This document shows, in pieces, positions 1 to 49,825 of a DNA stretch of 64,000 bases. Under the pieces are notes generated by a model. It ran no database searches, had not been told where the DNA came from, and saw only the letters and a program-made list of their open reading frames with translations. This stretch comes from Balneolaceae bacterium (GTDB lineage: Bacteria > Bacteroidota > Rhodothermia > Balneolales > Balneolaceae): contig VEMX01000035.1 of NCBI GenBank assembly GCA_009711805.1, positions 1 to 64,000 on the forward strand, given 5' to 3'. Made by a program: the position numbers and the translations under genes. The number at the start of each line of letters is the position of its first letter. Within the stretch, counting starts at the first letter, position 1.

Positions 1-110
1 TTAAAATGATCTACGTGTAATTTTTTTTAATTGAAGCCATCCAACAAAATAAGTACCTCAAAAATTTGATTAATCTTTTGAGTCAATTCTCAGTTCATTC
101 GGCCTGTTAA

Positions 111-857: not shown

Positions 858-943
858 ACTAATCATCTAGCAAATTCCAATCAAGATCTTATAACATAGC
901 AAATATCTTTACTCGATTATTTCATTTTTAAATCATAAAAATT

Positions 944-2860: not shown

Positions 2861-2945
2861 AAACAGGTAGTAAAAGTAGTTGTTGTTGTTGTTTTTCTTT
2901 TTATAGAAAATAATGTTGACCATTTTAACTAAACAATATTTGATT

Positions 2946-3203: not shown

Positions 3204-3221
3204 TTAAACTAATAGATAACT

Positions 3222-3245
3222 GGGATGTCAATAAAGTGACATCCC
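3222..3245 (+). terminator. hairpin after peptide gene
   Basis: A perfect 9-bp stem (gggatgtca / tgacatccc) with a 6-nt loop begins 18 nt after the peptide stop codon and ends 25 nt before the propeller start. T-rich sequence follows it. It could act as a partial terminator or 3'-end stabiliser that favours peptide mRNA over the downstream gene. The second peptide locus has a hairpin in exactly the same place. Confidence 0.65.
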
Positions 3246-3270
3246 TTCCATTTATTTTAATATATACACA

Positions 3271-4894: not shown

Positions 4895-4923
4895 GTCAAA
4901 CGGGGATGATCTGATCTCCTTCC

Positions 4924-5066
4924 CACCTGGCGCAAGCGTCCGCTTGTGTCACCTCTGCTCTGCCACTAAGCATACCAAAGATCATTCGTTACATTGATCT
5001 GTAAGGAATAGCCTGTTCACTGGTCTAACTGCTAAAAAGAAACCAATGAACAGAAAGTATAAATTC
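4924..5066 (+). repeat. RAYT-associated repeat remnant, copy 1
   Basis: About 143 bp here align, at an estimated 75-80% identity, with 7638-7776. The segment starts with a quasi-palindrome (gcaagcgtccgcttgtg) and ends with an ATG (5046) that opens MNRKYKF, the typical beginning of REP-associated tyrosine (IS200-like) transposases of Bacteroidota. It stops after 14 codons. It is therefore an upstream REP-like sequence plus the severed 5' end of a RAYT gene. Apart from this and an inverted repeat at 5216-5299, the 4895-5481 gap holds nothing I recognise. Confidence 0.6.
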
Positions 5067-5215
5067 ACCAATGCTCCCCTGCGCTTCTAGCATGTTTAAT
5101 AACTACTCAGCGGTGTGGTTTATGGCTTAACGCTTCACTGCGTTAGCTTCTTCACGCATTCTTTTCTAAGGCCGATGGATGGGTTGGGGAGTGAGAAGTG
5201 AAAAGGCAGAAAAAA

Positions 5216-5299
5216 GTTCAATAAACTATTATTCAGCCGCCCCGCCTTCATCTAAAATAGCTTTCGGAGGGTAGGTTTATATGAAGGTGTTTATTGAAC
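5216..5299. repeat. nested inverted repeat
   Basis: Perfect 11-bp inverted arms gttcaataaac (5216-5226) and gtttattgaac (5289-5299) enclose a second inverted pair, ccttcat (5245-5251) and atgaagg (5281-5287). The 84-bp structure lies in an otherwise empty gap upstream of the toxin-antitoxin pair. It could be a small non-autonomous element or a cruciform. No coding is visible. Confidence 0.5.
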
Positions 5300-5481
5300 A
5301 TTTTGGACTACAAATAACCATAACACATACATTTTAATGAAATTGAGGAATGAATGATATACATTTACGCAGATGAAATGTTTATCGATACTATGCAACC
5401 TCAAGCCAGTGATAAAATTATTTTCCTTTTTATGAGTTTATTACCATACTACAGAAGTATTCAAACTAGTTGAGAAAAGCT

Positions 5482-5706
5482 ATGATCGACGAAAACATCA
5501 AAAAGCAGGCGCTTGAACTTTCGCTTCAGGAACGCGCCGAACTTGCACATATGCTGATCGATAGTCTTCACCCAGAAAAGGAATTCGAATCTGAGGAGGC
5601 CTGGTCAGAAGAACTAAAGAAACGTATTGACCGATATGAACAAGGTAAAAGTTCTACAAAACCTTGGAGTGAAGTAAAAAAAAATGCGCAGTCACTTCTT
5701 GACTGA
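5482..5706 (+). CDS. addiction module antitoxin
   Basis: A 74-residue acidic protein from the ATG at 5482; an in-frame TTG at 5470 is less likely. ALELSLQERAELAHMLIDSL is the conserved N-terminal helix pair of the 'addiction module protein' family (Unstab_antitox), followed by EEAWSEELKKRIDRYEQGK. The family consists of small antitoxins that bind and neutralise ParE/RelE-type toxins and usually repress their own operon. The stop TGA shares its last base with the ATG of the toxin gene, so the two are translationally coupled. An attC-like site follows the pair, and toxin-antitoxin pairs are common passengers of integron cassettes. Confidence 0.85.
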   Translation: MIDENIKKQALELSLQERAELAHMLIDSLHPEKEFESEEAWSEELKKRIDRYEQGKSSTKPWSEVKKNAQSLLD

Positions 5707-6011
5707 TGAGCAAAATGGCCTTTGAACTTGACGATGCGGCAGAGGCCGAGTTTTACGATATCGTTGATTATTACAAACAATTTGATCAGACGCTTTCCTA
5801 CGATTTTATTCAAGAGTTTGAAGATGCTGCTCAGCGACTTATAAAATTCCCCAAAGCAGGCCATCCCTATCTTCATCAGACTAAACGTACTTTTCTGAAT
5901 CGGTTCCCTTATGCAATTGTGTACAAGGTTTACAGGGATGAATTAATCATGGTTTTTGCCATTATGCATATGAAACGAAAACCGGATTATTGGGAAAAGC
6001 GCCTTAAATAA
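5706..6011 (+). CDS. ParE/RelE-superfamily toxin
   Basis: A 101-residue protein with the RelE/ParE pattern: an N-terminal helix (AAEAEFYDIVDYYKQF), LIKFPKAGHPY in the middle, and a C-terminal strand series RTFLNRFPYAIVYKVYRD followed by IMVFAIMHMKRKPDYW. The last motif (H-x-K-R-x-P-x-Y-W) is typical of ParE-like toxins partnered with addiction module antitoxins. Family members act on DNA gyrase or on ribosome-bound mRNA; the target here cannot be read from sequence. The start overlaps the antitoxin stop by one base. Confidence 0.88.
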   Translation: MSKMAFELDDAAEAEFYDIVDYYKQFDQTLSYDFIQEFEDAAQRLIKFPKAGHPYLHQTKRTFLNRFPYAIVYKVYRDELIMVFAIMHMKRKPDYWEKRLK

Positions 6012-6021
6012 ATAGCAGGTT

Positions 6022-6111
6022 GCATAACCAGCAAATCAACCGGACGTGTTTGCATTTGGTTACTTACATTCAAGTTTGTCGGCACGCCGGTTATTTGCCA
6101 AACCGTTAGCT
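6022..6111 (+). other. integron attC-like recombination site
   Basis: This is an imperfect palindrome of about 90 bp lying 11 bp after the toxin stop. The left arm has GCATAAC (6022-6028) and agcaaatcaaccgg (6030-6043). The right arm has ccggttatttgc (6087-6098) and gttagc (6105-6110). The arms pair well except for an unpaired c in gcaaat(c)aaccgg and an unpaired a in ccgg(a)cgtg. Such extrahelical bases on one arm, with R-box-like ends resembling RYYYAAC and GTTRRRY, are the signature of attC sites. No integrase gene is in the window. Confidence 0.6.
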
Positions 6112-6125
6112 AGTTTTTTTACGAA

Positions 6126-6806
6126 ATGAATATTCACGCAGTCACAAATAAGATTAATGAAGCTGATTTCTTCTTTGAGAAGTTAAAGCACTCTTCAACT
6201 GAACCAGTAAATAGGTCTGAAACAGAATATTATTTGAGTGCATTTTTATCTGCTGCAAGAAGTTTTACTTTCGTTCTTCAAAAAATGTGTAAACATGATC
6301 GAAATTTTTCAGATTTTGAAGAATGGTATCGTAATCAATTGAAAAAATTGGAGTCTTACCAATTTTCAGAATATTTTAAAGAATTCAGAAATGTTGCTCT
6401 TAAAGAAGGAGTATCAGTTTTAAGTGGCGGAGCCATTTATACCAATGAAGATGGTGAGATGGTATCTGAAATCCATCTGTCTCACCAAACAATTCAATTC
6501 AAAAATATTAAGATACCAGACAACTTTTTAGAAGAGTCATTTAACTACCTAAAAATTCTTGTTTCAATTTATTGGGATTTTCTTGTTGAGTTTGGAGAAA
6601 AAATTGATCCTTGGCGAATTCATACAATTAATTTCCTTAAGAAAAACAATGACCATCAACATGATTTAATTTACTCAAGCATTGAAGATTTTGAAGGAGA
6701 GCTTACCAAAGAAATAGAAACGAACAAACTGTTTTCTAATTCTAAACCACATAAAATTGTTGATCAATTATTTGAAAAATATTTAAAAATAAATCGCTTT
6801 AAATAA
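6126..6806 (+). CDS. hypothetical protein, probable integron-cassette gene
   Basis: A 226-residue, mostly helical, soluble protein that I do not recognise by family. It begins 15 bp after the attC-like site. The first 70 residues (NEADFFFEKLKHSS and TEYYLSAFLSAARSFTFVLQKM) look like the opening of HEPN-like or cassette-borne helical proteins. The second half contains FGEKIDPWRIHTINFLK. The A+T-rich composition matches the surrounding island and differs from the core genes downstream. There is no signal peptide or membrane segment. Confidence 0.65.
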   Translation: MNIHAVTNKINEADFFFEKLKHSSTEPVNRSETEYYLSAFLSAARSFTFVLQKMCKHDRNFSDFEEWYRNQLKKLESYQFSEYFKEFRNVALKEGVSVLSGGAIYTNEDGEMVSEIHLSHQTIQFKNIKIPDNFLEESFNYLKILVSIYWDFLVEFGEKIDPWRIHTINFLKKNNDHQHDLIYSSIEDFEGELTKEIETNKLFSNSKPHKIVDQLFEKYLKINRFK

Positions 6807-6832
6807 AACTTAGTTAAGCTATTTTCTCATAT

Positions 6833-7330
6833 ATGAAAAAGAATTTAACAATTATTGCTTCATTGGTATTCATATTAAGCTGCTCTATATTCGACAATAA
6901 AGAAGACCGCCCCGGGAAAATCCCAATCCAAGAATTAATGGCTGCTCCTGATACCTTATACATTGATAGTCAGCCTTTCGTTTTAAGGACGTACATGTGG
7001 CGAGACTTTCAACCTATTTCACCTCCGGATGGTAAGCCTCTTATCGCTATCTTTTGGGTTTATTCTGCGGATTCAACGAAGATTCCTGAATCTTTAACTG
7101 CTAATGCCGCTTGGATTATTAATGAAAATAAAATTTGGGATACATATTTAACGGGAGAAGAACCTCCACCAAGTCAACAGCAGCCATATCAACTATATGA
7201 AGTTGCCAGAAACGGACCAAAATGGGGACCTGGAATTGAAGTAGACGTGGTTTTACAACTTCAAAGCAATACAGATGGGAATAAACATCTAATAAGGGCT
7301 TCCACTCAATTTATTGGACGGACTGATTGA
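6833..7330 (+). CDS. hypothetical lipoprotein
   Basis: A 165-residue protein with a short signal peptide ending in the lipobox ILSC (Cys17), so it is predicted to be lipid-anchored in the envelope. The body (PIQELMAAPDTLYIDSQPFVL, GKPLIAIFWVYSAD, KWGPGIEVDVVLQLQ) looks like a beta-sandwich and shows no catalytic motif. It starts 26 bp after the preceding hypothetical gene with no second attC visible, so it may share a cassette with it or be older chromosomal sequence. Function unknown. Confidence 0.65.
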   Translation: MKKNLTIIASLVFILSCSIFDNKEDRPGKIPIQELMAAPDTLYIDSQPFVLRTYMWRDFQPISPPDGKPLIAIFWVYSADSTKIPESLTANAAWIINENKIWDTYLTGEEPPPSQQQPYQLYEVARNGPKWGPGIEVDVVLQLQSNTDGNKHLIRASTQFIGRTD

Positions 7331-7637
7331 ATACCATTTACTTACCATTATTTGTCAAATCTTTCGATAAGTGGTGTAACATCTTTAAAAAAAACATTGT
7401 CAAGGGCACATAGTTTCCCCACCGTAGATTTTACGTTTCTCTAATACTCATTATAGCAAAATGCCGTTTTCATCCTCTAATGGCGTGGTCGGTCAGGTGA
7501 TCTTTCCGGCGCTACCGGCGGTCCCCCGAAGGGAAGCCGTTGGCTCAAACATCTTTACGGGCTTATTCCCGCCACTCCGGACAGTACTGTCCCGGCAATA
7601 GTCAAAAACAACTCATATCTTTTCTATTTTTCTTCAC

Positions 7638-7776
7638 CACCTAGCGCAAGTGTCCGCTTGTGCATCTCTGATCTGCCACTAAGCATACTAATAGCATTCG
7701 TTAACTTGATCTGTGGAGTCACTTGCTCACAGGTTTAACTGCTAAAAAGAAACCAATGAGCAGAACGTACAAATTC
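7638..7776 (+). repeat. RAYT-associated repeat remnant, copy 2
   Basis: This second copy of the 4924-5066 repeat has the same order: a quasi-palindrome (gcaagtgtccgcttgtg), tctgccactaagcata, a stretch of moderate similarity, actgctaaaaagaaaccaatga and an ATG (7756). The ATG opens MSRTYKFLD, a RAYT-like N-terminus that stops after 20 codons. The rest of the 7331-7826 gap is a G+C-rich stretch (7480-7590) without a recognisable gene. The stretch 7594-7640 resembles the 3' end of the M16 gene at 7795-7841. Confidence 0.6.
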
Positions 7777-7826
7777 TTGGATCAACCGCGGCTACCGACA
7801 ATCATTCAAAACAACTAACACCCTTT

Positions 7827-10670
7827 CTATTTTCCTTCCCCAATAAACTCATTAATGAGCACAGGGTCTCCAAATCCAAGCTGTTTCAAGCGGTTTAACT
7901 GGGTTTTGGCATCGCCAACCACCAGGTAGATCATTTTGTCGGGGTTGGCATATTGCCGGGCCAGTTTCTGTATATCTTCTTTGGTGATGTCTTTCACAAT
8001 TTCTTCCCGCTTTTTAACATAACTGGCCGACCAGTCATAAGCGCTCATATTCTGGAGTACCCTCAGCTTGGCTCCATTTGTCTCAAACGCCCGGGCGTTA
8101 CTCTTCAGTAAAAAGCTTTTGGTGTTTTCGAGGTCGGTGTCGGTAAAGGTTGAAGGGTATTCTTCCAGGATCTCTTTTACCAGTTGGGCAGATTCCAATG
8201 TAACATTGCTACGCACACCGCTGCTGATGGTAAAGGGGCCTTTTAACTGTGAGCCAGAAAAACCGGAACGGATACCATAAGTGTAACCTTTGCCCTCACG
8301 GAGTTCCTGGGTGAGGCGGGAGGCAAATCCACCGCCGCCAAGGATATAGTTCATGATAGCGGCCGGGTAGTAATCATCATCGGTTTCAGCCATTCCAAGA
8401 TAGCCGAACCGCAATACCGATTGCTTGGCCCCGGGCACATCATAAAAATACACTTTTGATTCAGATACGGCTTCCGGGGTCTCATACTCTGGAATTTCAA
8501 CATTCTTGCTTGCCCAGTTAGCTTCAAGGCTTGAAAGAGAATTCAGAACCTGTTCCTGGGTAATAGAACCCACCACATGCATATCGGCCAGCGAAGGGGA
8601 GAGGTTGTTGGTATAGTATTCCTTAAGGTCGTCCAGCGTAATCGACTCCACACTTTCAATGGTACCGGACGGATTGTAGGAGAGAATGTGATCTTCTCCA
8701 TACAGCAGCTTGTTATAGGCGTTGGAAGCAATACTGTTGGGGCTGGCACTCATTTGTGCAATGCTACTCAGGGTGCTTTGTTTGGCGAGGGCGAACTCGC
8801 CTTCATCCCATCGGGGTTCCAGCAGCATTTCTTCTACAAGCTTAATGGTTTCAGGATAGTTACGGGCCAGACTGTTACCGCTTACCGTGATATACTGGCG
8901 GCCGGCACTGATATTGATACTTGCTCCAAGCTCATCGATGGCTTCTTCCAGCTCTTCCGGAGTTTTATCTGCGGTGCCCTTGGTCATAAGGTCTGCCATC
9001 AGCTTCGATATTCCTACTTTCGAAGGATCTTCCAGTAGCAATCCGCCTTTTATGCGGATGTTGAACTGTACCAGGGGCAGCTCATCATTCTCAATGCCAT
9101 ATACCTGCATACCATTGCTTAGGTCGGCCGACCAGGTTTCCGGTACCTTAATGTCGGGGCTTTCACCATATGGTGGCTCCTGGCTGCGGTCGAAGCTGGA
9201 AGGGGTGCGTTCGTAATCGCTGCTCTCGGGAAGGGTAAAGGATTCGCCCTCAGCATTTTGCACAATCTTTTCTTCTACCACATTGGCCGGTTCCGAATCA
9301 GAGACAGCAAGATCTGTCTGCCCACGGGGTACAAAGCTGGTGATAATCTTGTCTTTGTTTCTGATATACTGCTCATACACCCGCATAACATCTTCCTTGG
9401 TTACGGCCAGGGTGTGTTCAATATCCCGGTTGATGTAGCCGGGATCATCGGCAAAAATATTATACTGCGCCAATTGAAATGCTTTACCCAACACGCTTGA
9501 GAGTCTGTTATAGTAGTTTGTTTCTATTCCTGCTTTAATGCGGTCGAGGTCGGCCTGGCTAAAGCTTTCACTTTCGAAGCGGTTAAATGCCTCCTGAATA
9601 GCAGCGTTTACATCGTCAAGGTCTTTATTGGGATAAGCCCGTGCGGTGAGGGTGATTTCACCGGCTATTTCAGAATTCCCGCTTCTCATAGATACTCTTG
9701 GAACCAGTTCCTGCTCTTCAACCAATACTTTATAAAAAGGAGATTTCTTCCCGCCGGTTAACAGTTGCCCAAGGATATTGAGCGCATATGAATCCTCATG
9801 ATACATATCAACGCCCGGCCAGGTCATGCGGAGCTCGGGGAGCCGGGCAAAGTTATCTTCATAGTAGAGTTTCTTGGTTTCATCAAGGGTAGCAGGGCGG
9901 TCTTCGAGTGGGGTGATTTCTTCGCCTCGCGGGATCTCATCAAAGTATTTGTGAACCCACTCTTTAGCCTGATCCACATCAAAATCCCCGGCTATTACAA
10001 GGGTGGCGTTATTCGGCACATACCATTTGTTGTAGAATTCCTTTACATCGGCAAGGGTTGCAGCTTGCAGGTCTTCCAGCGAACCAATTACCTGCCAGCT
10101 GTAGGGATGGCCTTCGGGATACAGGTTTTTACCGATTACATAGTTGGTATGCCCATAGGGGCGGTTATCATTGCTCTGGCGTTTTTCATTCTTTACTACC
10201 TGCTTTTCTTTGGCTACCACTGCCTCGGTTACTGTGTTAATGAAGTAGCCCACTTTATCAGCTTCAGCCCAGATCATTTTTTCAAGGGCATCTTTGGGAA
10301 CCGTTTGGAAGTAATTGGTGCGATCGCGGCTGGTAGATCCATTGGCACCCGAGCCCCCGATGCGGCTGCTCATTTTGTCCAGTCCGCCTTTGCCAAGGTT
10401 TTCAGATTCCAGGAACAGCAGGTGCTCAAAAAGATGGGCAAATCCTGTACGACCTGTTTTCTCCCGGGCAGATCCCACATGAAAGGTAAGGGCAACGGCC
10501 ACCACAGGATCCGAATGGTCTTGATGGAAAACAACCTCCAGGCCGTTATCCAGCGTTATTTTTTCATAATCAATGTTGAATTGTTTTTGCTGCTGGGGGG
10601 AGGAACAGGCGGTCATCATTAAACAAACAAAAAGACAAAATGATGACAGGGGCTTAAGACTGGATTTCAT
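7827..10670 (-). CDS. M16 family zinc peptidase, two-domain lipoprotein
   Basis: A 947-residue insulinase/pitrilysin-family protease with two M16 halves. The signal peptide ends in a lipobox (TACS, Cys22), so the enzyme is probably lipid-anchored in the periplasm or outer membrane. The first half holds the inverted zinc motif HLFEH (His79, Glu82, His83) and the downstream Glu of VVKNEKRQ (about 162), plus the NGSTSRDRTNYF segment. The second half lacks HxxEH but has the GKGYTYGIRSGF (Arg/Tyr) signature of the non-catalytic partner domain. It likely degrades peptides inside a closed clamshell chamber. It stands alone between an accessory island and the DUF3109-rpoN pair, transcribed towards the island. 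Confidence 0.95.
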   Translation of the reverse strand: MKSSLKPLSSFCLFVCLMMTACSSPQQQKQFNIDYEKITLDNGLEVVFHQDHSDPVVAVALTFHVGSAREKTGRTGFAHLFEHLLFLESENLGKGGLDKMSSRIGGSGANGSTSRDRTNYFQTVPKDALEKMIWAEADKVGYFINTVTEAVVAKEKQVVKNEKRQSNDNRPYGHTNYVIGKNLYPEGHPYSWQVIGSLEDLQAATLADVKEFYNKWYVPNNATLVIAGDFDVDQAKEWVHKYFDEIPRGEEITPLEDRPATLDETKKLYYEDNFARLPELRMTWPGVDMYHEDSYALNILGQLLTGGKKSPFYKVLVEEQELVPRVSMRSGNSEIAGEITLTARAYPNKDLDDVNAAIQEAFNRFESESFSQADLDRIKAGIETNYYNRLSSVLGKAFQLAQYNIFADDPGYINRDIEHTLAVTKEDVMRVYEQYIRNKDKIITSFVPRGQTDLAVSDSEPANVVEEKIVQNAEGESFTLPESSDYERTPSSFDRSQEPPYGESPDIKVPETWSADLSNGMQVYGIENDELPLVQFNIRIKGGLLLEDPSKVGISKLMADLMTKGTADKTPEELEEAIDELGASINISAGRQYITVSGNSLARNYPETIKLVEEMLLEPRWDEGEFALAKQSTLSSIAQMSASPNSIASNAYNKLLYGEDHILSYNPSGTIESVESITLDDLKEYYTNNLSPSLADMHVVGSITQEQVLNSLSSLEANWASKNVEIPEYETPEAVSESKVYFYDVPGAKQSVLRFGYLGMAETDDDYYPAAIMNYILGGGGFASRLTQELREGKGYTYGIRSGFSGSQLKGPFTISSGVRSNVTLESAQLVKEILEEYPSTFTDTDLENTKSFLLKSNARAFETNGAKLRVLQNMSAYDWSASYVKKREEIVKDITKEDIQKLARQYANPDKMIYLVVGDAKTQLNRLKQLGFGDPVLINEFIGEGK

Positions 10671-11034: not shown

Positions 11035-11625
11035 ATGTTCAGAGTTAAAGACACTATTTTATCTGAAGAGATTGCTACGGCTCGCTTTGCCTGCGATCTT
11101 CCCCGATGCAAGGGAGCCTGCTGTGTGGTTGGCGATGCCGGCGCGCCCGTGGTAAAAGGCGAGGTTCCCGTATTGCATAAAGCCTATCGTTTGTTGAAAG
11201 ATGAACTTCGTCCCGAAGCTATAGAAGTGGCTGAGCGGGAAGGAGTGGTACAGGGCGATCAGAAGGCGGGTTATGAAATTTCCTGTGTTGATGGAGCCGA
11301 ATGTGTATTTGTGCAGTACGATGAAGAGGATGTTGCCTATTGTACCATACAAAAAGCGTTTATAGAAGGACGGTTCAGCTGGGAAAAACCAATTAGCTGC
11401 CATTTATTTCCGCTTCGGTTAAAGCGAATAGCAGATTTTGATTATGCTAATTTTGAATATGTTCCGAAACTATGTTCGGCCGCTTGCGAAAAGGGCAAAG
11501 AAGAAGATGTATTTCTTGCAGAATTCCTTGAAGTACCGTTAGTTAGAAGATATGGTAAGGAATGGTTTAAGGAATTTTTGAATTCTTGCAAAGAGATCAG
11601 GGAAAAAGAACTGAATGCTACGTAA
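11035..11625 (+). CDS. DUF3109 family cysteine-rich protein
   Basis: A 196-residue soluble protein of the DUF3109 family. It opens with FACDLPRCKGACC (Cys20, 25, 29, 30) and has further conserved cysteines in VDGAECVF, AYCTIQ, ISCHLFPLR and LCSAACEK. The CxxxxC/CC pattern with HLFP suggests a bound metal or iron-sulfur cluster, but no biochemical role is established that I know of. The 3' end overlaps the start of rpoN by 11 bp, so the two are co-transcribed and probably translationally coupled. Confidence 0.9.
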   Translation: MFRVKDTILSEEIATARFACDLPRCKGACCVVGDAGAPVVKGEVPVLHKAYRLLKDELRPEAIEVAEREGVVQGDQKAGYEISCVDGAECVFVQYDEEDVAYCTIQKAFIEGRFSWEKPISCHLFPLRLKRIADFDYANFEYVPKLCSAACEKGKEEDVFLAEFLEVPLVRRYGKEWFKEFLNSCKEIREKELNAT

Positions 11626-13129
11626 TCAGCAAAATTTAGGACAAAAACAGAAGCAGAGCCTTCAGCAGAAGCTCTCGCCCCAGCAGTTGCAGTATATCAA
11701 ATTATTGCAGTTGCCCACTATTGCCTTGGAACAGCGGATCAAGGAAGAGATAGAATTAAACCCGGTATTGGAAGAAGGGATCCCTGATGAACAGCCACAG
11801 GAAAGTTTAACAGCTGAGGACGAAGCCGAAGAAAAAGAAGAAGCCCTTGAGAGCCTTGAAGAGCACGAAGTAGACTGGGACGAATACGATACCAATACAG
11901 AGTATGATGGTGAAGCTTACGAAGGCAACCACTATTCCACGACCTATAACCCTGATCGTGCTGAATGGAGAGAGTTGCCTAATCCCTATCATGTATCCCA
12001 ACTGGAAAGCCTGGAAGAACAAGTATCGCTGCTGGATTTAACCGAAGAGGAAGAACTTATAGCGGATCAAATTTTAGGTTCACTGGACGAAGATGGTTAT
12101 TTCAGGAGGGAACCGGAAGCAGTAGTAGACAATATAGCATTTAATGAGGGAATACTGGTTACTTCCGAAGATGTGGAACGGGTTCGACAACAAATTCAAA
12201 AGCTGGACCCCATAGGTATTGCCTCCCGCAGCCTGCAAGATTGTCTGGCCATTCAGCTGAGTTATACATCCGAAGAGATGCCAGGCCGCAAGCTGGCGAT
12301 CCACATTGTAGAAGACGCATGGAAAGCTTTTGAAAAGAAACACTTCTCCAAACTCCTCCATAAATTCAATATTGAAGAAGAAGAACTGAAACAAGCCTTT
12401 GAGATTATAAAGGGACTGGATCCCAAGCCGGGAGCCGTTTCAGACCAGATGGCACAGACCGGGAATTATATAGAGCCGGATTTTGAGGTGTATTGGAAAG
12501 GAGCCAACAATGGGGAAACCGAAAGAGGGGAGTTCGTCATTAACCTGAACCAGCGGAATGCCCCCTCGCTGCGTATTTCCCCGGATTACAAACAGATGTG
12601 GGAGGAAATCAAGGCGAAGAAAAAGAAAGAGGATAGTGAAGCCCGCTCGTTTATGAAGAGTAAAATAAATTCGGCCCAATGGTTTATTGAATCCATCAAA
12701 CAGCGGCAGAATACTCTTATGAACACCATGAAAACCATTGTGGCCCTGCAGGAAGACTTCTTTCGCTATGGGGATGGTTTAAAGCCCATGATCCTCAAAG
12801 ACGTTGCCGAACGCATAGGCATGGATATCTCCACCGTATCCCGCGTAGTGAATGGCAAATATGTACAGACCAACTACGGAGTATATGAGCTCAAGTACTT
12901 TTTTAATGAGGGACTGGAAACGGAAAGCGGAGAGGAAGTATCCAACCGGGAAGTAAAAAATATCCTGCAGGACCTGGTAGATAACGAGAACAAGAAAAAA
13001 CCTTACAGCGACCAGCAACTGGCCGACCTGCTCAAAGAAAAAGGATATAAAGTAGCCCGCCGCACCGTCAGTAAATACCGGGAGCAACTCAACCTGCCCG
13101 TAGCCCGCCTGAGGAAGCAGATTATTTAG
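11615..13129 (+). CDS. rpoN: RNA polymerase sigma-54 factor
   Basis: A 504-residue sigma-54. Region I is Gln/Leu-rich (QSLQQKLSPQQLQYIKLLQLP, residues about 14-34) and is followed by a very acidic region II of about 70 residues. The core-binding domain, the helix-turn-helix (ILKDVAERIGMDISTVSRVV) and the near-invariant RpoN box ARRTVSKYRE (481-490) close to the C-terminus come next. Sigma-54 directs polymerase to -24/-12 promoters and needs an AAA+ activator to open them; no activator is encoded in this window. The start overlaps the DUF3109 gene. A tandem repeat array begins 174 bp downstream. Confidence 0.97.
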   Translation: MLRNQQNLGQKQKQSLQQKLSPQQLQYIKLLQLPTIALEQRIKEEIELNPVLEEGIPDEQPQESLTAEDEAEEKEEALESLEEHEVDWDEYDTNTEYDGEAYEGNHYSTTYNPDRAEWRELPNPYHVSQLESLEEQVSLLDLTEEEELIADQILGSLDEDGYFRREPEAVVDNIAFNEGILVTSEDVERVRQQIQKLDPIGIASRSLQDCLAIQLSYTSEEMPGRKLAIHIVEDAWKAFEKKHFSKLLHKFNIEEEELKQAFEIIKGLDPKPGAVSDQMAQTGNYIEPDFEVYWKGANNGETERGEFVINLNQRNAPSLRISPDYKQMWEEIKAKKKKEDSEARSFMKSKINSAQWFIESIKQRQNTLMNTMKTIVALQEDFFRYGDGLKPMILKDVAERIGMDISTVSRVVNGKYVQTNYGVYELKYFFNEGLETESGEEVSNREVKNILQDLVDNENKKKPYSDQQLADLLKEKGYKVARRTVSKYREQLNLPVARLRKQII

Positions 13130-38910: not shown

Positions 38911-39930
38911 TCAGGGCATTAATTCCTGAAAAGTTTTTCTGCTTCTGAGAAAATAACGGAATACAACATTTGTGTTGACCATGGTTTCAGGGTTGCCATC
39001 TTGTGTTCTGTTTTTTAAGAGTTGTTTCCTCTTTTTGTGAATAGATGGCAGGTGTTTAAGGAAAAACATATGTGCCTTAAAGATGGCCTTATATTCTCCT
39101 GTATTCGTAGAAATCAGAGCTTTTTTGGCCGCAATAATATCAAGAGCAAAACGAACCGGAAAGCGGGTAAAGAGACTGGAGGTAGAATAGTTTTTCCATA
39201 ACATTGCCAGGCTGTTTCTGAAATTATAGTAGACTTTGCGGGGATCTCCCATGGCCAGAGACCCGCCTCCAAGATGATATACTACACTCTCCGGGGCATA
39301 TGAAATGGTATATCCCAAATTTTGTATGCGCCAGCATAAGTCAATTTCTTCCATGTGGAATTCGAAATCTTCATCGAACCCCCCGGTTTCTATAAAAAGG
39401 TTTTTTCGGATAGCCAGAGCGGCACCACTGGCCCAAAAGATATCTATCGAAGTGTCATATTGTCCGTGATCTTTTTCCAGGGTGTCAAACATTCTTCCCC
39501 GGCAAAAAGTATATCCGTATTTATCTATGAAACCGCCGGCGGCCCCTGCATATTCAAAAAACTCTGGTTCATTGTAGGCCCTCATTTTGGGTTGTACGGC
39601 AGCTACCTGCTCATCTTCAAAAGCTTTATTAATACCATGCAGCCAGTTTGGGGTTACTTCAACGTCATTATTGAGAAAAAGAAGGATCTCTTTTTCAGTA
39701 AAGGGAACGGCTTTGTTATTTCCTCCGCAATAACCGTAATTCTGATCCAAAGCCGCAATTTTTATATTAGGATAATTTTTTTTCACCCACTTTTTTGTAC
39801 CATCCGAAGAAGCATTATCTGCAATTATTATTTCGTAGTTTGGATAATCGGTAGCTGCAACAGAAGGAAGGAATTTCTTAAGGTGATGAAGCCCGTTCCA
39901 GGTAACAATAATGATGCTGAATCCCTTCAA
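38911..39930 (-). CDS. family 2 glycosyltransferase
   Basis: A 339-residue GT2 enzyme with a GT-A fold. SIIIVTWNGLHHLKKFLPS opens the nucleotide-sugar domain, IIADNASSDGT (about 35-45) binds the nucleotide, and FLNNDVEV (about 85-92) provides the metal-binding DxD equivalent. EEIDLCWR is the acceptor-side acidic motif. It resembles rhamnosyltransferase-like enzymes that build cell-surface polysaccharide. Donor and acceptor are unknown. Confidence 0.92.
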   Translation of the reverse strand: MKGFSIIIVTWNGLHHLKKFLPSVAATDYPNYEIIIADNASSDGTKKWVKKNYPNIKIAALDQNYGYCGGNNKAVPFTEKEILLFLNNDVEVTPNWLHGINKAFEDEQVAAVQPKMRAYNEPEFFEYAGAAGGFIDKYGYTFCRGRMFDTLEKDHGQYDTSIDIFWASGAALAIRKNLFIETGGFDEDFEFHMEEIDLCWRIQNLGYTISYAPESVVYHLGGGSLAMGDPRKVYYNFRNSLAMLWKNYSTSSLFTRFPVRFALDIIAAKKALISTNTGEYKAIFKAHMFFLKHLPSIHKKRKQLLKNRTQDGNPETMVNTNVVFRYFLRSRKTFQELMP

Positions 39931-40045
39931 TGAAATTATATTTGAATTAAGTATGGTTATTAGACAAAATTAAATGGAAGAACGTTAGAAAAAGTGGTTA
40001 CTTCCAAGCTTTGTGACATTATTCAGTAAGGATGATACAAAAAGT

Positions 40046-40558
40046 ATGATCAAAATAGGGTTAATTTCCGATACACATAATTATCTGGATCCACAGGTCT
40101 CGGAGTATTTCGCTGACAGAGATGAAATATGGCATGCCGGGGATTTCGGAACCATTGCTATAGCAGAAGAACTGGAGCAGATAGCACCGGTGTTGGGAGT
40201 GTATGGAAATATAGACGGACAGGATATTCGCCAAACTTACCCGCTGCATCAGCGCTTTGAGCGAGAGGGATTGGATATTTGGATGACCCATATTGGTGGA
40301 ATTCCCGGCAGGTATTGCATTCCAATTCGGGAAGAAATGGAGGAAAATACTCCCGAACTTTTTATCTGCGGCCACTCACATATTCTCAAGATTGCACGGG
40401 ATCAGAAAATGGACAAAATGTTGTATATGAATCCCGGTGCGGCCGGCAAACAGGGCTTCCAGGTATATCGTACTATTGTACGTTTCGAAATTGACCAGGG
40501 GAAATTACATAACGTAGAAGTTATAAATCTTGGGATTACAGGTGAGAATAAGGAGTAA
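40046..40558 (+). CDS. YfcE/MJ0936-type metallophosphodiesterase
   Basis: A 170-residue calcineurin-like phosphoesterase. Metal ligands are visible in order: Asp8/His10 in ISDTHNY, Asp in HAGDFG, Asn in VYGNID, His in MTHIGG and GHSH in FICGHSHIL. NPGAAGKQGF is typical of the YfcE/MJ0936 family. The ATG at 40046 (MIKIGLISDTH) is preferred over an upstream in-frame start at 40013 because the fold begins there. It converges, end to end, with the phytoene-desaturase-like gene. Confidence 0.92.
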   Translation: MIKIGLISDTHNYLDPQVSEYFADRDEIWHAGDFGTIAIAEELEQIAPVLGVYGNIDGQDIRQTYPLHQRFEREGLDIWMTHIGGIPGRYCIPIREEMEENTPELFICGHSHILKIARDQKMDKMLYMNPGAAGKQGFQVYRTIVRFEIDQGKLHNVEVINLGITGENKE

Positions 40559-42028
40559 TTATTCGTATCGTTCAATAAGAGATGCTGCATTGAAAGCCGA
40601 TTGAATAACCAGTGGGATGCCTCCTCCCGGATGTGTTGACCCTCCAACAAAATAAAGCCCCTTAATCTCTCTCGATTTATTTCTGGGACGCACAAAAGCC
40701 GAAAAGGTACTATTCGATGAAGTCCCGTAAATACTCCCTTTATTCGATCGGTATTTGTGATAGAAATCCTTTGGACTAATGCTGTCTCTGAATATGATAT
40801 GATTTGACAGATCATCCAGTCCTCTTTTTTCCAATTCTTCTATCACTTTATCCCCGTATTGATGCTTTTGCTGGTCCCAGTGATGATGTTCAATGAGATA
40901 AGGTGCATTCACCAGAATGAAGAGATTTGAGTGTCCCTGAGGTGCATGTCCCTTATCCGTATGGGAGGTATTGGCAACATAAATAGTCGGATCGTCTGGC
41001 ATTACCTTTTCTTGAAATATCTGACGGAACTCCTCCTCGTAGTTACCAGAGAAAAAGATATTGTGATGGTTCAGTTGTTGGTAGCGGGTGTCAACTCCCA
41101 ATAACAGTACAAATCCTGAAGAGGAGGGTTCGGCAGCTTCTGCTTTTCTGTGTTGTTTTCTGCTGATGGAATCGGGTGGCAGCATGTGCCGGACGGTTTC
41201 TGAAAAATCACTGTTGGCAATTACCAGATCTGCATCCAAAGGGGTACCGTTCACTATTACACCTTCAACTTCATCATTATCAATTCGGATTTTATCAACC
41301 TTGCTGTTGAATTTAAATTCTACTCCGGATCTCTTCGCCAGTTCATGCAAACACTCCGTTATTTTATATAATCCTCCTTTTACATAATAGCCCCCCTGGT
41401 TGATTTCAACGTGGGGAATTACATTCAACGTAGCTGGTGCCAGGTAGGGAGACGAACCGTTGTAGGTTGTAAAGCGTTTAAAAAACTTCCGTAGATATGA
41501 GGAAGAAAAATACTGATCAACTTTGTTGCTTACGGTTGCAAAGGCATCAATCCCAAAGAAATCCCAAAGGTTGAGGTTCCCAAAATCTTTTAAGCTATAA
41601 AGTGGGTTAAAGATAAAAGCATCCGCAGTTTTGTTATACAGTGATTCAGCATAATCCAGGAATTTGATGTATGCTTCGGCATCTTCCGGGGCTATTCGGT
41701 TAATTTCTTTGAGGGCTTGTTCTCTGTTGATGTAACTATTGAATACGGTACCATCGGGATAAAAGTACTTGCATAAGGGATCCGGTTCTATAAGTTTGAG
41801 GTGTTCTTCAACTTCTTCCCCGCATTGCTGGAATAATTGTTTGAGGATGAAGGGCATGGTAAGCAAGCTGGGCCCGGTATCGAAGCGATAGCCCTTTTCG
41901 CTCATCAGGTTCATCTTTCCGCCAGGCTGTTTGTTTTGTTCGATAAGTTGTACCTGGTGCCCCTTGTTGGCCATTATACAGGCTGCCGACAAGCCGCCGA
42001 TTCCAGCACCAATTACAATAACTCGCAT
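40559..42028 (-). CDS. phytoene desaturase family FAD-dependent oxidoreductase
   Basis: A 489-residue flavoprotein from the ATG at 42028. The dinucleotide-binding GAGIGGLSAA at 7-16, LIEQNKQPGGKMNLM and RFDTGPSLLTMP are characteristic of CrtI/CrtN/CrtD carotenoid desaturases. The C-terminal YFVGGSTHPGGGIPLVIQSA is the conserved FAD/substrate motif of this group. It would desaturate or isomerise a polyprenyl or carotenoid chain. No phytoene synthase or other crt gene is nearby. It is instead the last gene of a cluster with HAD, APH-like and glutamine-synthetase-like genes, so a non-carotenoid substrate is possible. Confidence 0.88.
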   Translation of the reverse strand: MRVIVIGAGIGGLSAACIMANKGHQVQLIEQNKQPGGKMNLMSEKGYRFDTGPSLLTMPFILKQLFQQCGEEVEEHLKLIEPDPLCKYFYPDGTVFNSYINREQALKEINRIAPEDAEAYIKFLDYAESLYNKTADAFIFNPLYSLKDFGNLNLWDFFGIDAFATVSNKVDQYFSSSYLRKFFKRFTTYNGSSPYLAPATLNVIPHVEINQGGYYVKGGLYKITECLHELAKRSGVEFKFNSKVDKIRIDNDEVEGVIVNGTPLDADLVIANSDFSETVRHMLPPDSISRKQHRKAEAAEPSSSGFVLLLGVDTRYQQLNHHNIFFSGNYEEEFRQIFQEKVMPDDPTIYVANTSHTDKGHAPQGHSNLFILVNAPYLIEHHHWDQQKHQYGDKVIEELEKRGLDDLSNHIIFRDSISPKDFYHKYRSNKGSIYGTSSNSTFSAFVRPRNKSREIKGLYFVGGSTHPGGGIPLVIQSAFNAASLIERYE

Positions 42029-42042
42029 ACACAGTACCTGGG

Positions 42043-42888
42043 TTAGGTTACAATAGATTCGCTGATATAATCCGGAATAATACCCGTAGAATTGATCCAA
42101 AGGTCTGTTTTCTCGCGGCGGGTATTTCCGGAAAGGACCAGCATGGTTTTTAAACCAAACTTATTGCCGCCAAGGATATCGGTTGTCAGGGTATCGCCAA
42201 CCATTAGGATTTCGTCGCGTTTGTATGATCCGGACTCATTAATATGGTCAAAGGCGTATACAAACATTTGCGAGTCGGGTTTACCAAAGTGGATGAATTT
42301 TCGTTTCAGCATATCTTCTACCAGCTTTGCCAGGGCCCCGGTAGCTATAGAAACATCACTTTTTGAAACCGGGTAGTATCGATCTGAGTTGGCTACGATA
42401 ACCGGCATATTTTTTCTTCTGAGAAGGTTCACCGTCTTATTGAGGTCATCATTCCAGTTAAAGCCTTCATCATCCAGAAACACAAAGGCAGAAATATCAT
42501 CAACATCCTCAAGATCAATTTCCCGGACGGGAATATGCTCGAGTCCTGATTCGAGGATATAATCAGCGGAATTATCAGTGCCAAGGTACGCGATTTTGCC
42601 ATCCTTGATTTTGAGATCCAGAAACTGTTTAGCCAGCATTCCGGAGGTGATAATCTCTTCTTTATCTAAACCGTGGAGCCCCAGCTTCTCGAAAACCATA
42701 ACCTGCTGTTCTCTGCTGCGGGAAGCATCATTGGTTAGCACCCGGAGGGTAAGACCTTGTTCCCGAATAAAATGAAGGGTTTCATTCACCCCTTCAATTA
42801 AGCCGTTGTGATTTTTTAATACTCCATAGGAATCCAGAAATACAACGTTAAACTGTTTTACGATGGTGGAAAAATTGCTTTCGATCAT
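42043..42888 (-). CDS. HAD-superfamily (IIA, NagD-like) hydrolase
   Basis: A 281-residue HAD protein. Motif I is VVFLDSYGVLKN, with nucleophile Asp19 and Tyr21 at the place of the usual acid/base Asp, as in some NagD-related subgroups that read DxWGV. Motif II is RVLTNDASRS, and the cap region is followed by HFGKPDSQMF with the conserved Lys. MVGDTLTTDILGG is motif IV. It probably hydrolyses a small phosphorylated metabolite. It lies 12 bp from the phosphotransferase-like gene, pairing a kinase-like and a phosphatase-like gene. Confidence 0.88.
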   Translation of the reverse strand: MIESNFSTIVKQFNVVFLDSYGVLKNHNGLIEGVNETLHFIREQGLTLRVLTNDASRSREQQVMVFEKLGLHGLDKEEIITSGMLAKQFLDLKIKDGKIAYLGTDNSADYILESGLEHIPVREIDLEDVDDISAFVFLDDEGFNWNDDLNKTVNLLRRKNMPVIVANSDRYYPVSKSDVSIATGALAKLVEDMLKRKFIHFGKPDSQMFVYAFDHINESGSYKRDEILMVGDTLTTDILGGNKFGLKTMLVLSGNTRREKTDLWINSTGIIPDYISESIVT

Positions 42889-42900
42889 GAATACTAATCA

Positions 42901-43944
42901 TCAGAGGTTAAGAGCCTGAAGCAGTGGCTCGGCATTGAATTTGTCGTCAATTGAGGGTAAATGCATTTCATATGCTTCCTGTTGTAGCTTAATGGCAAAT
43001 ATTTCGTGGAAAAAATACCGCCCGTATTTGATTACATAATTCAGAATAAAAAAGCGATACACTTCTTGCAGGAAAAGCACTTCAGTTTTTGTAAGAGGGA
43101 ATTCTTTATGATAGGCCTTCAGAAAAAGAATAAACCGGTCTTCCATAAGCGGATCTATATTGTAGGTGAAAATAGTTTTATCGCCTACCGAGGAAACCAC
43201 ACGGCTTAAGAAATAGAAATCCATGGTCCTTGAACTCATCCGGAACCAGTCGTAATCCCAGCGGGAGTACAAGCTGAAATCTTCGGTTACTGTGAAGTTG
43301 CCAATGTTCCAATCTACGAAAACAGGGATGACCTCAAGATCCCAGGCATTAATGGCATGTGTATTTTCTTTAAATCTTCGGCACTGTTCTTTGATAAGAT
43401 CCAGATGCATTCGGTATTCATGCCGGCCATGGTCGGTTTCAAGCTGTTCCAGCAGATCGTCAATATCAACTTCCATGGTTTTGGAGGAAGGGGGCAGCGT
43501 ATTGCGAATACCGTAACAGGCTTTATGGAAACGGGCAAATTCGGTACCCAGTCGTTTAATTTGCTCTTCATTTAACCTTCGCGGGAGCCTGTTTTTATTT
43601 TCAACCGGACGATAAAACACAACCCAGGCATCAATAATCTCCGACTCGTAGCGGTATACAAACAGGTTGTTTCCTTTCATAAGCGAACACGCCAAAAAGT
43701 TCTCATAGGGAGAGGGAAGGTTATTCGACATGGAATTTATGATGGCATGATCTTCCACAAAATGTTCAAATTTACCAAAGTAGGAGAGTTTGGCAATGAT
43801 GGAATTACCAGTCGTGAATGTAATCCGGTACACATGATTGGTGGATACTTTGGCGCTGATGTCGGTAATATTGGCAATATCCCTGGAGCTGTCGTAGGCA
43901 TTCCAGGCTTCGGTTACAATCTCATTAAAATCAATTAAGGTCAT
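42901..43944 (-). CDS. APH-like phosphotransferase (small-molecule kinase)
   Basis: A 347-residue protein of the aminoglycoside phosphotransferase/choline kinase superfamily, considerably diverged. YRITFTTGNSIIAKLSYFGK matches the nucleotide lobe with the Lys in IIAKLS (52). VFVDWNIGNF supplies catalytic Asp211 and Asn216, without the usual preceding His, and RWDYDWFRMSS supplies the metal-binding Asp (230/232). The substrate is unknown. The gene lies 12 bp from both neighbours in a four-gene operon with a glutamine-synthetase-like ligase and an HAD phosphatase. Confidence 0.8.
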   Translation of the reverse strand: MTLIDFNEIVTEAWNAYDSSRDIANITDISAKVSTNHVYRITFTTGNSIIAKLSYFGKFEHFVEDHAIINSMSNNLPSPYENFLACSLMKGNNLFVYRYESEIIDAWVVFYRPVENKNRLPRRLNEEQIKRLGTEFARFHKACYGIRNTLPPSSKTMEVDIDDLLEQLETDHGRHEYRMHLDLIKEQCRRFKENTHAINAWDLEVIPVFVDWNIGNFTVTEDFSLYSRWDYDWFRMSSRTMDFYFLSRVVSSVGDKTIFTYNIDPLMEDRFILFLKAYHKEFPLTKTEVLFLQEVYRFFILNYVIKYGRYFFHEIFAIKLQQEAYEMHLPSIDDKFNAEPLLQALNL

Positions 43945-43956
43945 ATAGACGTCTGA

Positions 43957-45315
43957 TTAAATAATTTCAAAATACCGTTTTAATTCCCAATCAGTTACTT
44001 GTTTTGAAAACTGATTCCATTCCCATTCCCGGCTTCTCACAAAGTGCTGGGCAAAAGGAGCTCCAAATAATGCTTCGGGAATATCGGAAGTTTTCATCAT
44101 ATCTGTAGCTTCTTTAAGTGTAGCGGGAAGCTGTTCGGATGTTTTATTTTCATACTCATTTCCTTTTGTTTGAGGAGTCTGCAGGGGGAGCTTGTGTTTG
44201 ATTCCATAAAGCCCTGAAGCAAGACTGGCAGCCATGCTGAGGTATGGGTTGGCATCGGCTCCGGGAACGCGTGTCTCAAGCCTCATGGCCTGGTTATTGG
44301 TATTGATAATCCTGAGGGCGGTAGTTCGGTTTTCGACACCCCAGCTCTTTGTAGTGGATGCCCAGGAACCGGCTACAAATCGTTTGTAGCTGTTTACCGT
44401 AGGGGCGTACATAGGTAGTATATAGGGCAGGCAGTGTAACTGTCCGGCGAGGTAATGTTCCATCAATGTACTGATGTTATTTGCTTTACCACTCGCATAA
44501 AAAAGATTTTGCTCTTGGTTTTCATCCCATAAGCTTTGATGTATATGTCCGCTGCAACCCGGTAACTTTGTACTCCATTTCGCCATGAAGCTGGCCATGA
44601 TTTCATGTTTATTGGCAATTTCTTTTACCGAAGTTTTAAACAAAATGGCGCGATCGGCAGCTTCCAGAATATCAGTGTATTCAATTGAAGCTTCGTAGAC
44701 TCCGTCCCCGGTTTCTGTGTGCAGGCCTTCAAGGGGAATATCAAAATCACCCAAGAGGTCGAACAGTTCATTGAAATACTCATCGTTCTGGGACGATCGC
44801 AATACGGAATAGCCGAACATACCGGGGGTTAAGGGGCTGGGGCTGGCATAGTTTTTTTGTTTCAGTGATTGTGGTGTTTCCCGAAAGTTAAACCATTCAA
44901 ATTCGTTGGAGAAGAGGGGAGCATAGCCCAACTTGAGGCATTGGTCGCTGATGCGTTTTAGCAGGCTGCGTGGGCATACCTCCTTTAGTTTCTCTGATTT
45001 ACTGAAATCACCCAGGAAAAAAGGCAATTCCTGATTCCATGGTATAGTTCGGAATGTACGCAGATCTATAGTTGCCAGAGCATCGGGGTAGCCGGTATGC
45101 CAGCCTGTAACTTCAGAGTTATCGTATACCGCATCGTTCATATCCCAGCCAAATACTACATCACAAAAGCCTATGCTCTTATCCAGGGATTCCAGGAATT
45201 TAGTTCTGGATATCAATTTACCCCGTAACACACCATCCATATCAGTAAGAGCAAACTTTACCTTATTACAGTCTGTAGATGTAAGATAATCTATTACCTG
45301 TATTTTATTATTCAT
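43957..45315 (-). CDS. glutamine synthetase family ligase
   Basis: A 452-residue member of the GlnA superfamily. The N-terminal beta-grasp part (FALTDMDGVLRGKLIS, DMNDAVYDN) precedes the catalytic domain with SNEFEWF, ETGDGVYEASI and GCSGHIHQSLWD (about 253-264), the last being the H-x-H-x-S ATP-binding loop. FVAGSWASTTKSWGVENRTTALRI has the conserved Arg. The tyrosine-adenylation loop of true GlnA is not evident. The pattern resembles gamma-glutamylamide ligases of the PuuA/GlnA3 type. It heads a four-gene operon with a kinase, a phosphatase-like protein and a flavoprotein. Confidence 0.88.
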   Translation of the reverse strand: MNNKIQVIDYLTSTDCNKVKFALTDMDGVLRGKLISRTKFLESLDKSIGFCDVVFGWDMNDAVYDNSEVTGWHTGYPDALATIDLRTFRTIPWNQELPFFLGDFSKSEKLKEVCPRSLLKRISDQCLKLGYAPLFSNEFEWFNFRETPQSLKQKNYASPSPLTPGMFGYSVLRSSQNDEYFNELFDLLGDFDIPLEGLHTETGDGVYEASIEYTDILEAADRAILFKTSVKEIANKHEIMASFMAKWSTKLPGCSGHIHQSLWDENQEQNLFYASGKANNISTLMEHYLAGQLHCLPYILPMYAPTVNSYKRFVAGSWASTTKSWGVENRTTALRIINTNNQAMRLETRVPGADANPYLSMAASLASGLYGIKHKLPLQTPQTKGNEYENKTSEQLPATLKEATDMMKTSDIPEALFGAPFAQHFVRSREWEWNQFSKQVTDWELKRYFEII

Positions 45316-48415: not shown

Positions 48416-49825
48416 CTAACTTTTCAGGCTGAGTTTAGCAACAGCTTCAATGTGGTAGGTTTGGGGGAACATATCCACAGGTTGTACCTTCTCTACGTTG
48501 TAGACGTTTTCCAGCTCTTTTAAGTCTCGAGCCATAGTAGAACTGTTACAGCTTACATATACTATTTTGGGCACTTTCAGCTCACACAGCCGTTTTACAA
48601 CATCGGGATGCATACCGGCCCGGGGAGGATCCGTAATCAGTACATCCGGTGAGCCATACTTTTGCTCAACACTTTGGTTGAACACTTCTTTCATATCTCC
48701 CTTAATAAAGTGTGCATTATCTACGCCATTTTCTTTGGCATTAAAGCGGGCATTTTCAACAGCTACGTCTACCAGTTCTATACCTACTACTTTTTCAGCT
48801 GGTTTACTCATAAACAGGCTTAAGGTGCCCACTCCGCAATATAAGTCATAAACAATATCCCCGTCTTCAAGGTCAGCAAAGTCGCGGGTCACTTCATACA
48901 GCTTTTCAGCTTGAGCTGTATGGGTTTGGAAAAATGCATTGGGATGAATTTTGAAGCTGAATTCCCCAATATGATCAACAATATAACCCGGGCCGTGGAT
49001 CACTTTTTCGTACCTGCCCACGGCAGTAGGATTTTTTTGATCATTGATGTTATTTACAATGGTGGTAATGATTGGGAATTCTTCAAGCAGAGCCTCAGCC
49101 AGGGCTTGAATGGTATCCGGTTCATTGCGGTAGGTTACCAGGTTCACCATGAAATCATTGGTGTGATGTGCATTGCGGATCATCACATGGCGCATAAAGC
49201 CTTCATTCTCAAAAGTGTTGAAAGCTTCAATATTATGCTCAATACAATAGGATCGCACAAAATCCAGAATCTGAAAAGATTCTTCTCTTTGAAGATGGCA
49301 TTCCTGAATGTTGAGGATCTTGTCAAACCGGCCGGGAGCATGAAGTCCGGCTGCAAAGGCGGCGTCATCTACAAATTCATCGCTTTTAATTTCTTCTTCA
49401 GTCAGCCACCGGCGATTTCCGATGCTATATTCCATTTTATTCCGGTAGTAGAGTTCCCGTTCGGCTCCAATGCCTTCCAGTACGATGGATTCATCAAGCC
49501 CGCCAATACGGCTAATATGATCGCGTACCTGCTGGGTTTTAAATTCCAATTGTTTGCTGTAAGGGATATGCTGCCAGCTACAACCTCCACATACGGGAGC
49601 ATGCTTACAAGTGGGTTCAATCCGATGGGGACTGGGGGTAATGATGTTGAGCAGCTTGGCTTCTCGGTAATTTTTTTTCTTTTTAACGATTCTGGCTTCA
49701 ACAATATCGCCGGGGGTAGTATCCCGAACGAACACAGCAAGTCCGTCAACTTTGGCTAACCCTTTGCCTTTAAATGCCGCATCAATAATTTCAAGTTCAA
49801 CAATGGTTCCTTTTTTTAGAGCCAT
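48416..49825 (-). CDS. rlmD: 23S rRNA (uracil-C5)-methyltransferase RlmD-like
   Basis: A 469-residue RumA/TrmA-family enzyme. An N-terminal TRAM domain (LEIIDAAFKGKGLAKVDGLAVFV) is followed by the Fe-S cysteines Cys73, Cys79 and Cys82 (CKHAPVCGGCSW) and a fourth in NIQECHL. The Rossmann domain has YDLYCGVGTLSLFM and LITDPPRAGMHPDV. The catalytic Cys426 lies in VSCNSSTMARDL. It methylates 23S rRNA at a uridine such as U1939; RlmC/RlmD specificity is not certain. It sits 3 bp from the cNMP-binding gene. Confidence 0.93.
   Translation of the reverse strand: MALKKGTIVELEIIDAAFKGKGLAKVDGLAVFVRDTTPGDIVEARIVKKKKNYREAKLLNIITPSPHRIEPTCKHAPVCGGCSWQHIPYSKQLEFKTQQVRDHISRIGGLDESIVLEGIGAERELYYRNKMEYSIGNRRWLTEEEIKSDEFVDDAAFAAGLHAPGRFDKILNIQECHLQREESFQILDFVRSYCIEHNIEAFNTFENEGFMRHVMIRNAHHTNDFMVNLVTYRNEPDTIQALAEALLEEFPIITTIVNNINDQKNPTAVGRYEKVIHGPGYIVDHIGEFSFKIHPNAFFQTHTAQAEKLYEVTRDFADLEDGDIVYDLYCGVGTLSLFMSKPAEKVVGIELVDVAVENARFNAKENGVDNAHFIKGDMKEVFNQSVEQKYGSPDVLITDPPRAGMHPDVVKRLCELKVPKIVYVSCNSSTMARDLKELENVYNVEKVQPVDMFPQTYHIEAVAKLSLKS

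Follow-up and report, generated by a model that had tools for sequence, protein, structure and literature searches.

A GlnA-like ligase, kinase and HAD gene trio in Balneolaceae and its association with type II glutamine synthetase

The window analysed here is a stretch of 64,000 nt from a Balneolaceae bacterium (contig VEMX01000035.1, positions 1-64,000, forward strand), whose region 40559-45315 encodes a GlnA-like ligase, an APH-fold kinase, a HAD-IIA protein and a CrtI-like oxidoreductase (Table 1). The four tandem open reading frames (ORFs) lie on the minus strand with intergenic gaps of 12, 12 and 14 bp, as the original prediction had stated. The first three genes (45315-42043) form a conserved trio, and the kinase and HAD genes track type II glutamine synthetase (GSII) across the phylum. 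The family assignment by Pfam and NCBIfam was clear for three of the four genes (GlnA-like, HAD and CrtI-like).

Table 1. Genes of the trio and their neighbours in the window.
Feature	Position	Strand	Evidence
GlnA-like ligase, opening the conserved trio; from its sequence, probably a gamma-glutamyl-amine ligase	43957..45315	-	PF00120 (Gln-synt_C) E 6e-93
APH-fold kinase from a family without a name; with HAD, the conserved core	42901..43944	-	AlphaFold2 model, fold matches
HAD-IIA protein, Tyr/Phe replacing the second motif I Asp	42043..42888	-	TIGR01460 132.1 bits (cutoff 100.15), HAD-IIA E 2.7e-38
CrtI/CrtD-like carotenoid oxidoreductase, chance neighbour outside the module	40559..42028	-	TIGR02734 418.7 bits (cutoff 238.1), crtI_fam E 3.2e-125
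Metallophos_2 phosphoesterase, conserved neighbour of the CrtI-like gene	40013..40558	+	PF12850; same pairing at the CrtI loci of relatives
Family 2 glycosyltransferase, conserved neighbour of the CrtI-like gene	38911..39930	-	PF00535; also beside CrtI in relatives

The gene trio and its carotenoid neighbour

The distribution of the genes was studied in two overlapping samples, one of 58 genomes of relatives and one of 394 genomes of the phylum. Protein searches in the relatives gave a GlnA-like match in 15 of 58, comprising the window's own protein, 13 orthologs (53-71% identity) and a 34% match (L015/L029, genome G028), which we regarded as a paralog and did not include among the 13 genomes. 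The kinase and the HAD gene occur together, each being found in one and the same set of 15 relatives, and in G028 the kinase gene is located with GSII rather than with the GlnA-like gene. In all 13 Balneolaceae ortholog neighbourhoods, the three genes run GlnA-like, kinase, HAD along the same strand, separated by -1 to 179 bp, a synteny beyond chance.

The kinase alignment, used to scan named genomes, retrieved at least 528 relatives; the best 80 of these, with titles naming Bacteroidota, were kept as loci. HAD is present in 77 of these 80 loci; two of the other three lie at contig ends, and one (L150) truly has no HAD gene nearby. The GlnA-like gene is located directly upstream of the kinase in 37 of the 80. 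The fetched flanks contain GSII in 16 loci, type III glutamine synthetase (GSIII) in 7, Amt in 5, GltB/GltD in 2 and CarB in 2, GSII being placed upstream of the kinase locus in Balneolaceae and downstream in Chitinophagaceae. In 13 further genomes of the phylum sample, the kinase is immediately followed by HAD in 12, and a GlnA-like gene precedes it at a distance of one or two genes in 9; GSII lies upstream in four genomes, which belong to a single genus. The kinase and HAD genes are most likely the core of the module, with the GlnA-like gene as a frequent third partner.

The CrtI-like gene does not belong to this module. Its longest ORF starts at a TTG codon (42100) inside the HAD gene, and because of this overlap we prefer the ATG at 42028 as the start; it leaves the 14-bp gap, and the ORF then begins at the FAD-binding motif. 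The protein scores well within the carotenoid desaturase family, and since the genome encodes a second, higher-scoring CrtI homolog (G000:C5:16430-17893; 614 vs 418 bits), a role as a later, CrtD-like desaturase is more likely for the window gene than one as phytoene desaturase. All 58 relatives have a match to the CrtI-like gene, at positions away from the trio, and the glycosyltransferase and/or the phosphoesterase were found beside CrtI in 7 of 9 inspected loci. In two loci (L061 and L068), CrtI directly adjoins an RNA methyltransferase gene like that at window 48416-49825. The trio therefore seems to have entered next to a pre-existing CrtI neighbourhood, of which the glycosyltransferase and phosphoesterase genes still flank CrtI in the window.

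A true four-gene pathway including the carotenoid oxidoreductase would explain the 14-bp spacing observed in the window's genome, but no CrtI homolog was found near the trio in the 13 Balneolaceae neighbourhoods (0/13), in the 80 named kinase loci (0/80), or within six genes of it in the 13 more distant genomes. Together with the separate neighbours of CrtI, this makes such a pathway highly improbable; a conserved four-gene cluster was rejected, and the CrtI-like gene is a chance neighbour. The claim that all the genes belong together is supported, as far as synteny goes, for the ligase, the kinase and the HAD protein and not for the oxidoreductase: when the lack of synteny in other genomes, proposed at the outset as the refuting observation, was looked for, the four-gene cluster failed and the three-gene core passed.

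Predicted properties of the three proteins

The GlnA-like protein scores below the curated cutoffs of the GlnA, GlnT and gamma-glutamylputrescine synthetase models, and below those of every ligase model found (NF045547, gamma-glutamylputrescine synthetase, 199 bits with a cutoff of 650; TIGR00653, type I glutamine synthetase, 218 bits with a cutoff of 429). Its residue register was taken from alignments. The six metal ligands of glutamine synthetase (GS)-type enzymes, as listed in PMC6529630, map to E138, E140, E201, E208, H257 and E347; none of these residues varies over the 25 aligned rows, and neither do the glutamate and ATP ligands E140, G253, R312, R349, H259 and R335. The ammonium site is altered: Trp318 occupies the Glu327 position and Pro252 the Asn264 position, both invariant in the same rows, and D65, at the Asp50 position, varies. 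PauA7 has Trp for Glu327 and GlnA2 has Pro for Asn264, according to PMC8998196.

The intact metal and ATP ligands of the GS catalytic domain, combined with substitutions at Glu327, Asn264 and Asp50, are the pattern of gamma-glutamyl-amine ligases of the GlnA2-4/PauA7 type. On this sequence evidence, the enzyme is probably a gamma-glutamyl-amine ligase, and the Trp318 and Pro252 substitutions make ammonia unlikely as its second substrate. At the Segetibacter locus, a SLOG/SLATT-domain protein (LSDAT_prok and SLATT_1; L083:4099-6261) is encoded directly upstream of the GlnA-like gene, and locus L088 holds a related ORF.

The kinase has no Pfam or NCBIfam match at E 0.001. The APH model PF01636 matched 1 of 52 members of the kinase family in a scan at E 1, with E 0.055, and did not match the window kinase. 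Because of this lack of a model, the APH-like label given by the original prediction was put to a predicted-structure test, from which it emerged confirmed. The AlphaFold2 model (mean pLDDT 90.2) resembles solved APH-fold kinases at Z values of about 20 (YihE and AmiN, 20.2; N-acetylhexosamine kinase, 19.7; homoserine kinase, 19.4), and the matches span the whole length, with 293-303 residues aligned at a root-mean-square deviation of 3.6-3.8. Judged by this model, the protein belongs to the APH-fold kinase superfamily. Lys52, Glu64, Asp211, Asn216 and Asp230 are invariant in 52 rows. From the motif spacing, we take Asp211 to be the catalytic Asp, Asn216 the Asn five residues on, Asp230 the metal Asp and Lys52 the ATP Lys, which would provide the full set of residues of an APH-fold kinase.

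The third protein is a member of the HAD-IIA family (Table 1). Its motif I is formed by D19-S20-Y21 and reads D-S-Y-G, with the Tyr at the second Asp position that had already been noticed, and it lacks the DxD motif I of a canonical HAD phosphatase. The substitution is a property of the family, since motif I is D-[SA]-[YF]-G in all of the 76 HAD relatives, of 77, that gave a motif match. D19, T52, K203, D232 and D237 are invariant in 24 rows. The second motif I Asp of HAD phosphatases is the general acid-base, as stated in PMC12715507. The closest solved relative is 2hx1 from Cytophaga hutchinsonii (E 1.2e-93, Z 36.8, 50% identity), followed by chronophin (Z 30.4, 27% identity), and LHPP is also found among the fold neighbours.

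Association with type II glutamine synthetase

All 15 relatives with the kinase and HAD genes carry GSII, one genome (G004) has GSII without the pair, and the other 42 have neither. In the phylum sample, the kinase was detected in 41 genomes and GSII in 70; 41 of 41 kinase genomes carry GSII, and the kinase occurs in 0 of the 324 GSII-less genomes. The Fisher p values are 5e-13 for the 58 relatives and 4e-37 for the 394 genomes, both ignoring phylogeny. The statement that the cluster matches no known nitrogen pathway is not sustained by these data. The two genes may be close, as in four Balneolaceae without a GlnA-like gene, where GSII abuts the kinase at 160-366 bp; over the 41 genomes, the distance is less than 3 kb in 13 and less than 14 kb in 16.

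GSII and GSIII are nearly exclusive in Balneolales (39 of the 58 relatives have GSIII, 16 GSII, 1 both and 4 neither, these four being 71-90% complete). This exclusivity was considered as the cause of the kinase link, and it was rejected because it fails outside Balneolaceae, where GSIII is also present in 10 of 13 kinase genomes, so that the kinase is linked to GSII rather than to the loss of GSIII. A CrtI tree of 30 genomes requires six state changes of the kinase, at least four of them forced, and GSII changes in the same direction in 4 of 4 supported independent pairs. When the kinase label is mapped on a GSII tree (60 of the 70 genes), five changes are required.

It could also be argued that there is no functional tie: the trio and GSII might be co-transferred on the same segments, or both might follow large genomes. 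The patchiness of GSII and the kinase within genera and the mostly larger genomes of the bearers would fit this view, but the neighbours vary widely while the pairing holds, and in 28 of the 41 bearers the genes are separated by over 3 kb or located on separate contigs, both being kept in 41 of 41. We consider this explanation improbable. Slightly less probable still is metabolite repair, in which the kinase and HAD proteins would clear a side product of GSII, much as glycolytic side products are cleared by HAD-IIA phosphatases of the PGP class. The HAD-IIA fold, the pyridoxal phosphatase/PGP-type proteins as nearest solved relatives after 2hx1, and the strict dependence of the pair on GSII are in its favour; nevertheless, 29 GSII genomes manage without the pair, and we know of no GSII side product that requires a kinase.

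A GlnA-like ortholog is encoded in 40 of the 394 genomes, after 14 matches at 31-36% identity were dropped as paralogs. Of the 41 kinase genomes, 34 hold this gene and 7 do not; conversely, six of the 40 GlnA-like genomes have no kinase, and three of those six have no GSII either. Because in our samples the kinase and HAD genes never occur without GSII, yet are found without the GlnA-like gene, they appear functionally nearer to GSII. These same counts (7/41 and 6/40) speak against amine salvage, in which the GlnA-like enzyme would glutamylate an amine or amino alcohol, the kinase would phosphorylate this compound or one related to it and the phosphate would be removed by the HAD protein, bringing amine nitrogen into the GSII/GOGAT pool. 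This is the phosphorylated, glutamylated metabolite of the original prediction minus the carotenoid enzyme: the four-gene unit is lost, and the gamma-glutamyl chemistry is likely.

Several observations are consistent with amine salvage. The ammonium-site substitutions of the ligase, with metal and ATP ligands kept, are those described above for PauA7 and GlnA2, and aminopropanol, choline and ethanolamine kinases are among the fold neighbours of the kinase. Moreover, a gene for a gamma-glutamyl cyclotransferase of the GGACT type lies divergently beside the GlnA-like gene in 5/5 genomes of a single lineage, the genus that also holds the four genomes with GSII upstream. However, GGACT was not found in the other loci scanned, and no typical amine-catabolism gene set recurs among the neighbour clusters listed. 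We regard amine salvage as almost as likely as the regulatory explanation that we favour.

We propose, with a probability of about 0.42, that the trio is an accessory module of ammonium/amine assimilation in GSII-using Bacteroidota, in which the kinase and HAD proteins form an opposed pair. The kinase would add a phosphate to GSII itself or, alternatively, to a small nitrogen metabolite reporting the nitrogen state, and the HAD protein would remove it, thereby setting the GSII-dependent nitrogen flux, while the GlnA-like enzyme would join glutamate to an amine other than ammonia. The presence of YihE among the fold neighbours of the kinase, and of chronophin and LHPP among those of the HAD protein, was counted as support. 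A narrower version, a dedicated reversible-phosphorylation system for GSII in Bacteroidota made up of this unnamed kinase family and of HAD proteins that lack the customary general acid, is unlikely.

Several results weigh against the proposed regulation. The GSII gene of the window's own genome is on a different contig (C16), and 29 of the 70 GSII genomes have no kinase, indicating that GSII does not need it. The bearers of the kinase tend to have larger genomes, and genome size could confound the co-occurrence; the test on the CrtI tree cannot reach p 0.05, because it has only four supported pairs. The replacement of the second motif I Asp by Tyr/Phe leaves the HAD protein without the general acid of phosphatases. 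The regions preceding the trio in 14 genomes gave no excess of sigma-54 sites (0 strict; 1 relaxed, with 0.5 expected). In addition, no Ser, Thr, Tyr, His, Lys, Cys or Asp site of GSII distinguishes the 39 genomes with the kinase from the 21 without it (threshold of at least 90% vs at most 40%; 60 of the 70 GSII genes included), which makes a direct modification of GSII less likely. The GSII residues showing the largest differences appear to follow a family (f29) that is kinase-free.

To our knowledge, the control of the eukaryote-like GSII in bacteria has been little studied in Bacteroidota. The literature searches gave no account of such control in this phylum, nor a published description of the GlnA-like/kinase/HAD trio. 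A kinase family that lacks a Pfam model and was never found without GSII in the 394-genome sample makes the question of GSII control testable with one operon; if the function is instead metabolic, the trio defines a new amine-assimilation module. The tie to GSII is invisible from the window alone, and the main result lies outside it.

As for the rest of the window, a sigma-54 factor gene (RpoN; three Pfam domains) is located at 11615-13129. The first 8000 positions have a G+C content of 32-37%, compared with 41-47% elsewhere, and the ORF at 944-1774 matches AAA_13 over positions 15-267 of 713 only; window 1-8000 is probably an island with a truncated gene. A promoter scan of the window gave fewer sites than in shuffles. 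A defence system was also considered and rejected, as PADLOC produced no match.

Comparison with known systems

The GlnA-like protein is similar to GlnA2, GlnA3 and GlnA4 of Streptomyces and to PauA7 of Pseudomonas in the GS fold and in the conserved metal, ATP and most glutamate ligands. It shares the aromatic residue at Glu327 with GlnA4/PauA7 and the Pro at Asn264 with GlnA2. It differs from all of them in being linked to a kinase and a HAD protein instead of a catabolic gene set.

The kinase shares with YihE, the amicoumacin kinase AmiN, N-acetylhexosamine 1-kinase and homoserine kinase the whole-length fold, the DxxxGN catalytic loop and the metal Asp. It is distinguished from them by an identity of 11-15%, by the absence of a Pfam or NCBIfam match, and by a Phe before the catalytic Asp, where this kinase motif usually has His. 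The HAD protein is alike to 2hx1 and to chronophin/pyridoxal phosphatase in the whole-length fold, motifs II-IV and the first Asp, whereas its family differs from the canonical HAD phosphatases in the Tyr/Phe at the second motif I position, where 2hx1 likewise has Phe.

The adenylylation of type I glutamine synthetase (GSI) by GlnE is a regulation of glutamine synthetase by covalent modification. The kinase and HAD pair would likewise exert opposed activities on nitrogen assimilation, but it differs in its chemistry and in the type of glutamine synthetase concerned, the modification of GSII being here only a proposal.

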